Source of the DNA: Paracoccaceae bacterium
Lineage (GTDB): Bacteria > Pseudomonadota > Alphaproteobacteria > Rhodobacterales > Rhodobacteraceae
DNA: 64,000 bases
Assembly (NCBI GenBank): GCA_026989355.1
Contig: JALSJM010000002.1
Coordinates: 248,001-312,000, forward strand
Direction: 5' to 3'
In this document: piece by piece, positions 4,736 to 21,131 of the stretch
Layout: each line of letters begins with the position of its first letter
Position numbering within the stretch: position 1 is the first letter of the stretch
Position numbers and translations under genes: made by a program
The notes under the pieces: model-generated
Told to the model about the DNA's origin: nothing
Databases searched by the model: none
Seen by the model: the letters and a program-made list of their open reading frames with translations, nothing else

Positions 4736-5185
4736 TCAGAACTTCAGAACAACCGAAAACACGATCAGCAGAAGCAGTATGGTCGGCACTTCGTTCATCA
4801 GACGGTATTTGCGCCCGCTTCTGGTATTTCTTCCATAACGAAAATCCTTCCATCGCAGGGCAAGCCAATGATGAAACCAGGTCATTATGATTACAGAAAG
4901 CGCCTTCAACCATGGCCAGATCTGCGACCAATCCACAATACCTGGCGTGAAAACAAGCATCAGCCCGAAAACCCAGGTTGCGATCATTGCCGGATTCATG
5001 ATCACACGTAACAGCTTTCGCTCCATGGTCACGAACAATGTGAATGTTTCGGATCCCGTAGAGACAGACTCGACATGGTAAACGAAAAGCCGGGGCAGAT
5101 AGAATATCCCGGCCATCCAGCTTATCACCGAGATGATATGCAGTGCTTTTGTCCAAGGATAAAGATTTGCAAGAATATCTGCCAT
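4736..5185 (-). CDS. hemJ: HemJ, protoporphyrinogen IX oxidase
   Basis: Integral membrane enzyme that oxidises protoporphyrinogen IX in haem and chlorophyll synthesis. The 149-residue product starts MADILANLYPWTKALHIIS and has about four membrane segments. It carries the conserved histidines of LHIISVISWMAG and FVYHVES, the WFHHWLALRWKDF loop and RLMNEVPT near the C-terminus. An upstream in-frame extension of 48 codons is open but AT-rich and unlike the family, so the ATG at 5183-5185 is used. It is the last leftward gene before the putative origin. Confidence 0.93.
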   Translation of the reverse strand: MADILANLYPWTKALHIISVISWMAGIFYLPRLFVYHVESVSTGSETFTLFVTMERKLLRVIMNPAMIATWVFGLMLVFTPGIVDWSQIWPWLKALSVIIMTWFHHWLALRWKDFRYGRNTRSGRKYRLMNEVPTILLLLIVFSVVLKF

Positions 5186-5581
5186 CGGCCATGCCCGTAT
5201 GATTTTGGTTTTCTCTAAATAACAATAAAGGAAAAGAAAATATTGTTGATTTAGTAGGGAACCACTTTCCTGTGGATTATTGTTCAGGCCACAGAGATAT
5301 CCACTTGGGAATGGATTGTGAATGAACATCTGGAAACATGAGAAAAGAGATCATTTCATAAGTATATCACAAAGGCACTGCCTTGGATTGTGGTATATGG
5401 TTGTTGTGGAAAAGCTGCTGTGAAGTATGTTGTCCTGTAAGAAAAACCATTCTTTTTCCTTGTCGAAAATCTTCCTGGAAGGGCTGATAAGCATGGGTCT
5501 TTTCAACAAGACGGATCGAAAGGCATCTGATCAGCAAGATTTGGGATTCCTTCCTTGCGTTTTTGTCACAGGTTCATGCAC
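5186..5581. other. Putative chromosomal replication origin (oriC)
   Basis: This 396-bp gap has no credible gene. Bases 5201-5250 are 78 % A+T, a possible unwinding element. Nearby are DnaA-box-like 9-mers: TGTGGAAAA at 5405-5413 (complement TTTTCCACA, fits TTWTNCACA), TGTGGATTA at 5271-5279 (one mismatch), TGTGAATGA at 5317-5325 (one mismatch), ATATCCACT at 5297-5305 (two mismatches) and TTTGTCACA at 5562-5570 (one mismatch). Genes diverge from here on both sides. In Caulobacter the origin lies beside a haem gene next to the maf-aroE-coaE-dnaQ run, which agrees. Function is inferred. Confidence 0.65.
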
Positions 5582-6181
5582 ATGACAGCAAGACTGGTGC
5601 TGGCTTCGGCTTCGGAAACACGACAAGCGCTTCTTCGAAACGCGGGTTTGAATTTCGAGGTAGATCCTGCGAATACAGATGAAGATGCCATCCGCTTGGC
5701 GCTGAAAGCCGAAAGCGTCAGACCCAGGGAAATTGCCGATGCTCTGGCCGAACACAAGGCGCGCAAGGTTTCTTCACGACGACCGGATGCTGTTGTGATC
5801 GGATGCGATCAGGTGCTTGATCTGCAGGGAACGGTCATCACCAAGGCAGAAACGGTTGAAGAAGCCGAAACCATACTGCGAAAACTCAGAGGGCAGACAC
5901 ATCAGCTTCTTTCATCTGTCGTGGTCTGTGAAGCCGGCAAGATTCAGTGGCGCCATGTTGGCATTGTCAGGATGACAATGCGCGCTTTTTCCGATGAATA
6001 TATTTCAGGTTATCTGAAAAGAAACCGGCTTGGTATTCGCGATTCCGTTGGATGTTACAAACTTGAAGGGGAAGGGGTTCGCCTGTTTCATCAGGTAAGT
6101 GGTGATTATTTCAGTGTTCTCGGACTACCCTTGCTGCCACTGTTGAATTATCTTGCGGACAGGGGGATCATCGCATCATGA
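5582..6181 (+). CDS. maf: Maf-family nucleotide pyrophosphatase (YceF-like)
   Basis: Maf proteins hydrolyse non-canonical or modified nucleoside triphosphates. The N-terminal phosphate-binding motif is [14 protein letters not shown] and the central catalytic motif is [12 protein letters not shown]. The DQV form, rather than DTV, resembles the YceF (7-methyl-GTP pyrophosphatase) branch more than the dTTP/UTPase branch. The ATG at 5582 has AGG nine bases upstream and matches the family start; an ATG two codons earlier and a TTG nine codons earlier are less likely. The stop overlaps the aroE start (ATGA), the first link in a maf-aroE-coaE-dnaQ operon. Confidence 0.92.
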
Positions 6182-20437: not shown

Positions 20438-21131
20438 CTGAATGTTCCCGCAGCAGGTTTTCGGCAGTCGTGATGGCTTCCGGGTATCCCACATCACACC
20501 ACTGGCCCTTGTAGACAAGACCGAACAGGCGTTGTCGTTTGATCAGCATGTCCCATAGTCTGTTCAGGGAAAATACCTTTTCGGGAATCCTTGCCAGCAG
20601 TTCTGTCCGAATGATCTGTGCACCGCTGTAGACCAATCCGGCACCACGGGTGATCCGCCCGTCGGGATCGAGCAGAAAATCGCCCTGCCCCTTGTGGCCA
20701 AGAGCGTTTTTGCGCGGCAGCAGCAGCAGCAGACCGTCCATGATTTCGGGATCCCAGGCATTTCGTAGTGCCAGAAGCGGGTTTTCCCCAACCCATACGG
20801 CATCGCTGTTCAGGGTGAATACCGGGCTGTTTCCCAGTAGCGGCAATGCCGCACGCAGCCCGCCACCGGTTTCCAGAAGGTCTGGTATTTCGCGCGAGAT
20901 ACGCAGGTTCTTTGCGTGGCCATCAAGATACGCAGCCAAGGCTTCATGCCTGTAATGGGTGTTTACCACGACAGGGTCAATATCGGCATTGGTCGCCATT
21001 TCAAGTGCGTGATCGATCAACGGTCTGTCCCCCACCATTATCAGCGGTTTGGGCCTGTCTCTGGTCAGTGCTCCCATGCGTTTGCCAAGGCCGGCCGCAA
21101 ACAACATCAAAGAACGAGGTGTTCCGCACAT
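20430..21131 (-). CDS. murU: MurU-type N-acetylmuramate-1-phosphate uridylyltransferase
   Basis: Sugar-1-phosphate nucleotidyltransferase of 233 aa. The signature LFAAGLGKRMGALTRDRPKP leads into MVGDRPLIDHAL, with the metal-site region FTLNSDAVWVG and the C-terminal WCDVGYPEAI. Small size, no hexapeptide repeats and direct linkage to an AmgK-type kinase point to MurU, which makes UDP-MurNAc from MurNAc-1-P in peptidoglycan recycling. It overlaps amgK and addB by 25 and 8 bp. A related NDP-sugar role cannot be excluded by sequence alone. Confidence 0.88.
   Translation of the reverse strand: MCGTPRSLMLFAAGLGKRMGALTRDRPKPLIMVGDRPLIDHALEMATNADIDPVVVNTHYRHEALAAYLDGHAKNLRISREIPDLLETGGGLRAALPLLGNSPVFTLNSDAVWVGENPLLALRNAWDPEIMDGLLLLLPRKNALGHKGQGDFLLDPDGRITRGAGLVYSGAQIIRTELLARIPEKVFSLNRLWDMLIKRQRLFGLVYKGQWCDVGYPEAITTAENLLREHSDA

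Follow-up and report, generated by a model that had tools for sequence, protein, structure and literature searches.

The gene-free gap between hemJ and maf as the predicted replication origin of a Paracoccaceae chromosome

Where does replication of the main chromosome begin in this Paracoccaceae bacterium, and does the gap that separates hemJ from the divergently oriented maf mark the place? The question was addressed in a genome of 2,590,491 bases (about 2.59 Mb; 19 contigs, 99.7 % complete), in which the window, that is, the whole stretch of 64,000 nucleotides analysed, corresponds to C2:248001-312000; positions below are those of the window unless a contig is named. Among named genomes, the closest relatives of its maf belong to Rhodobacteraceae, which identifies it as an alphaproteobacterium of the Rhodobacterales type. 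The gap spans 5186-5581, from hemJ (UPF0093; PF03653, 5.6e-58; 4736-5185, minus strand), whose ATG ends at 5185, to maf (PF02545, 3.1e-45; 5582-6181, plus strand), whose ATG lies at 5582, with a second in-frame ATG at 5576. Both flanks belong to longer runs, with parB-parA-rsmG-mnmG-mnmE-rho-hemJ on the minus strand to the left and maf-aroE-coaE-dnaQ on the plus strand to the right, beyond which secB lies on the minus strand. The gene-free interval and the divergence of its neighbours were thus as the preliminary description had stated them. Its reading of the gap as oriC was in turn supported by a switch in strand composition at a skew minimum, a cluster of DnaA boxes, an A+T-rich tract, a parS/parAB neighbourhood and the conservation of sites, and we consider the hemJ-maf gap to be the predicted replication origin of the main chromosome with a probability of about 0.96.

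The place of the skew minimum was determined on all contigs, the short contigs C9 and C11 being left out (read as N), and skew was followed contig by contig rather than round the whole circle because of the 19-contig assembly. On C2 (556 kb), cumulative GC skew reached one deep minimum only, located at C2:253,024, position 5024 of the window and 162 bases from the gap, and it climbed from there to the end of the contig. No comparable minimum was found on the other contigs, the large ones keeping one skew sign throughout except for a weak dip on C13 at 20.6 kb. The check that had been proposed for the oriC claim, a sign change of the skew at this locus and not elsewhere, therefore turned out in its favour. 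The preliminary description had also named dnaA and repABC as places where the origin might lie instead. Many bacteria indeed have oriC next to dnaA, which would leave the hemJ-maf gap merely a promoter region; here, however, the single dnaA copy (C2:380 kb), encoding one canonical DnaA with its box-binding domain, lies 127 kb from the gap within uniformly positive skew that makes no switch there, and no top-ranked DnaA-box window adjoins it, so that we regard this placement as extremely improbable. A repABC-type origin was rejected, since no RepC family protein was found in the genome.

Divergent gene runs and their promoters could by themselves produce a skew switch and an A+T-rich gap, in which case the true origin would lie elsewhere, for instance at the C13 minimum (position 20,575; -341 over 20 kb). 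Skew was accordingly also calculated from third codon positions only, after each gene strand's mean had been removed. On C2 the minimum persisted after this correction, at position 5198, inside the gap at its hemJ edge, and thus does not stem from the divergence of the genes. By contrast, the dip on C13 is shallower by an order of magnitude, and the same contig carries a dif-like site at 139.2 kb. Together with the family-wide conservation of the DnaA boxes, which are the best conserved 9-mers of the gap, and with the presence of the only two parS sites of the genome at the hemJ-maf locus, these results make an origin elsewhere very unlikely. Among the named relatives, skew minima in 12-kb loci were too noisy for origin placement.

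Other irregularities were recorded in the same genome. The weak second minimum of cumulative skew, at C13:20.6 kb, may reflect a rearranged or acquired end segment. To the left of the window, at C2:100-165 kb, a block of about 60 kb has near-zero or positive skew within the negative-skew arm, a pattern that would fit either an inversion or an acquired island. Unrelated to replication, C1:226.6-227.2 kb holds a short peptide gene that ends in CASCNNSGTSCW and has a small reading frame downstream of it; this gene resembles the precursor of a ribosomally made peptide.

DnaA boxes were clearly concentrated in the gap. A 414-base stretch held seven 9-mers within two mismatches of TTATCCACA, where 1.75 were expected (1 of 1000 shuffles gave as many), and two within one mismatch, where 0.16 were expected; the 400-bp window at the gap ranked first of 51,547 genomic windows by DnaA-box score. 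A ranking of box counts over gaps between open reading frames was unusable, as over-long reading-frame calls had shortened this gap to 225 bases. The reported cluster, and the one box said to fit TTWTNCACA, are confirmed. It should be noted, against the oriC reading, that none of the DnaA boxes in the gap is perfect and that just two have as few as one mismatch. These best boxes are TAATCCACA at 5271-5279 (minus strand), about 13 bases from TAGTAG triplets, and TTTTCCACA at 5405-5413 (minus strand), which has one mismatch and is the one that fits TTWTNCACA; many relatives have a box on the same strand as the latter, about 150-225 bases from hemJ. A weak box, ATATCCACT, lies at 5297-5305 (plus strand), in columns where several relatives have TTATCCACA or a near match, and TCATGCACA (5574-5582, plus strand; two mismatches) overlaps the start of maf, where most relatives have TTATCCACATG or a near match and several have TTATCCACATG itself.

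A cluster of this kind could also be a datA-like site near the origin, titrating DnaA or regulatory in function, without being the origin. Indeed, the second-ranked DnaA-box cluster of the genome lies in coding DNA at C2:61.5-61.9 kb, so that clusters alone are no proof of an origin. Only the cluster in the gap, however, is joined to a skew minimum, an A+T-rich tract and parS/parAB, and we give a purely titrating or regulatory role for the gap almost no credence beside an oriC. As for the cluster at C2:61.5-61.9 kb itself, it may have arisen by chance or serve as a DnaA titration site; it was rejected as an origin, lying in coding DNA without other origin signs.

The A+T-rich element that is expected beside the boxes of an oriC is present at 5201-5256, where an A+T-rich tract is followed by GAT and TAG triplets and, from its A+T content, its conservation and the strand bias of GATGATG, is a probable unwinding element. 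A+T content over 5201-5250 was 78 %, exactly the value given in the preliminary description, for a genome mean of 36.7 %, and only 0.003 % of genomic 50-base windows are as A+T-rich. Conservation was evaluated in an alignment of 18 hemJ-maf gaps, our own and those of 17 relatives from the family, in which 52 DnaA boxes with at most one mismatch were counted, compared with 2.1 in shuffled sequences. Conservation peaks coincided with DnaA boxes: among all 9-mers of the gap, the box at 5271-5279 ranked highest (identity 0.83, mean 0.41), the box at the maf start came second among the sites, and it was accompanied at the next level by the A-rich/GAT tract at 5232-5258. GATGATG occurred on the strand of the tract in 9 of the 18 gaps and on the opposite strand in none. 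When a strict pattern of the opening module, AAANGATGNTG...GGGGATTA, was applied to 101 genomes, the sole genome with a match was G049, at the hemJ-maf locus, which indicates that the module is too variable for an exact pattern.

The neighbourhood of the gap also carries the segregation system. The genome holds exactly two parS sites, both exact copies of TGTTTCACGTGAAACA, the ParB centromere site, and both to the left of the gap: one at 100-115, 5.1 kb away, and one at 2017-2032, at the start of mnmG, 3.2 kb away; parAB adjoins rsmG just left of the window. At the other end of the replication cycle, a dif-like site, GCATAATCAGTATTATGGTAA, was found once in the genome, at C13:139219-139239, some 0.6 kb short of the contig end and near the skew maximum there. 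Nearly the same sequence occurs in the closed genome of the relative G006, in which the dif-like site (1,597,390) and the hemJ-maf locus (3,477,437 of 3,558,757) divide the circle 53:47. The polarity of KOPS (GGGNAGGG) near the origin was too weak for use.

From a mechanistic point of view, DnaA binding, melting and origin activity can be predicted at the gap from what is known of bacterial origins. DnaA-ATP would bind the boxes located from 5271 to 5582 and would spread from an anchor, the box at 5271-5279, onto the GAT/TAG triplets of the tract at 5201-5256. The duplex would melt over this tract, the helicase would be loaded and two forks would leave outwards, after which ParB, bound to both parS sites on the left side, 3-5 kb away, would segregate the new origins.

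Origins in this abundant marine order are, as far as we found, mostly predicted by software. The placement proposed here would fix the zero point of the chromosome, and thereby an anchor for studies of gene dosage, replichores and strand bias, while the boxes, the triplets and the box at the maf start offer a conserved and testable origin layout.

The gap closely resembles what has been described for the family. Origins were predicted in 101 closed Rhodobacteraceae strains (an Ori-Finder set) from skew, DnaA boxes and parAB (PMC6699656), and the gap has the same properties, namely a minimum of GC disparity, a local GC minimum, DnaA boxes and parAB nearby; in these properties we found nothing that sets it apart from the predicted set. 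Judged from its sequence, it is an ordinary DnaA-type oriC of a known kind. Its order of elements is also like that of the basal unwinding system (BUS), in which a DnaA box has at least three NAN triplets on the correct strand no more than 16 bases away, with a spacer peak at 10-13 (PMC8287927): an A+T-rich tract, TAG triplets on the expected strand, a spacer of about 13 bases and a DnaA box. The main box at 5271-5279, however, has two TAG triplets instead of the three of the BUS rule (PMC8287927). In the gap, at least three triplets accompany only a weaker box near 5461-5469; among relatives, the rule holds in L054, L073 and L076, and some relatives have runs of at least five triplets.

With the Caulobacter origin, Cori, the gap shares a length of about 400 bp, a small number of DnaA boxes, an A+T content above the genomic level and a downstream maf-aroE-coaE-dnaQ run. 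The flanks differ, as the Cori of Caulobacter crescentus is bounded by hemE and COG1806, not hemJ and maf, and contains five CtrA sites and one IHF site (PMC1914354). On the flanks, the likeness drawn in the preliminary description thus needs correction. Here, hemE lies on another contig (C5:267 kb), and COG1806 (PF03618) was found neither in our genome nor in the relatives G006 and G058. TTAA is lacking from the gap altogether, as are TTAA-N7-TTAA and loose CtrA sites, which bears out the reported absence of CtrA boxes, and neither strand matches the IHF consensus WATCAN5WTR, although this consensus may miss divergent sites. In its flanks, CtrA sites and IHF site, the gap is thus not a Caulobacter-type Cori. 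The absence of CtrA boxes was common to nearly all relatives' gaps examined (TTAA-N7-TTAA occurred in one, L082), and CtrA is not essential in R. capsulatus, a member of the order (PMC2877005), so that this absence is not peculiar to our genome. The earlier remark that initiation control may differ from that of Caulobacter is a fair one, but it is not new. The genome has a ctrA gene on C18 (79 % identity over 80 residues to a CtrA N-terminus), and an indirect effect of CtrA at this origin may exist. Tentatively, and at slightly less than even odds, we suggest that in Rhodobacterales the two boundary genes of the Caulobacter origin were lost, as were the CtrA sites, while an opening module common to the family was kept (A-rich tract, GATGATG-type triplets, short spacer, TGTGGATTA and the DnaA box at the maf start), and that CtrA would thus not act directly at the origin as a brake, the timing of initiation being based on DnaA.
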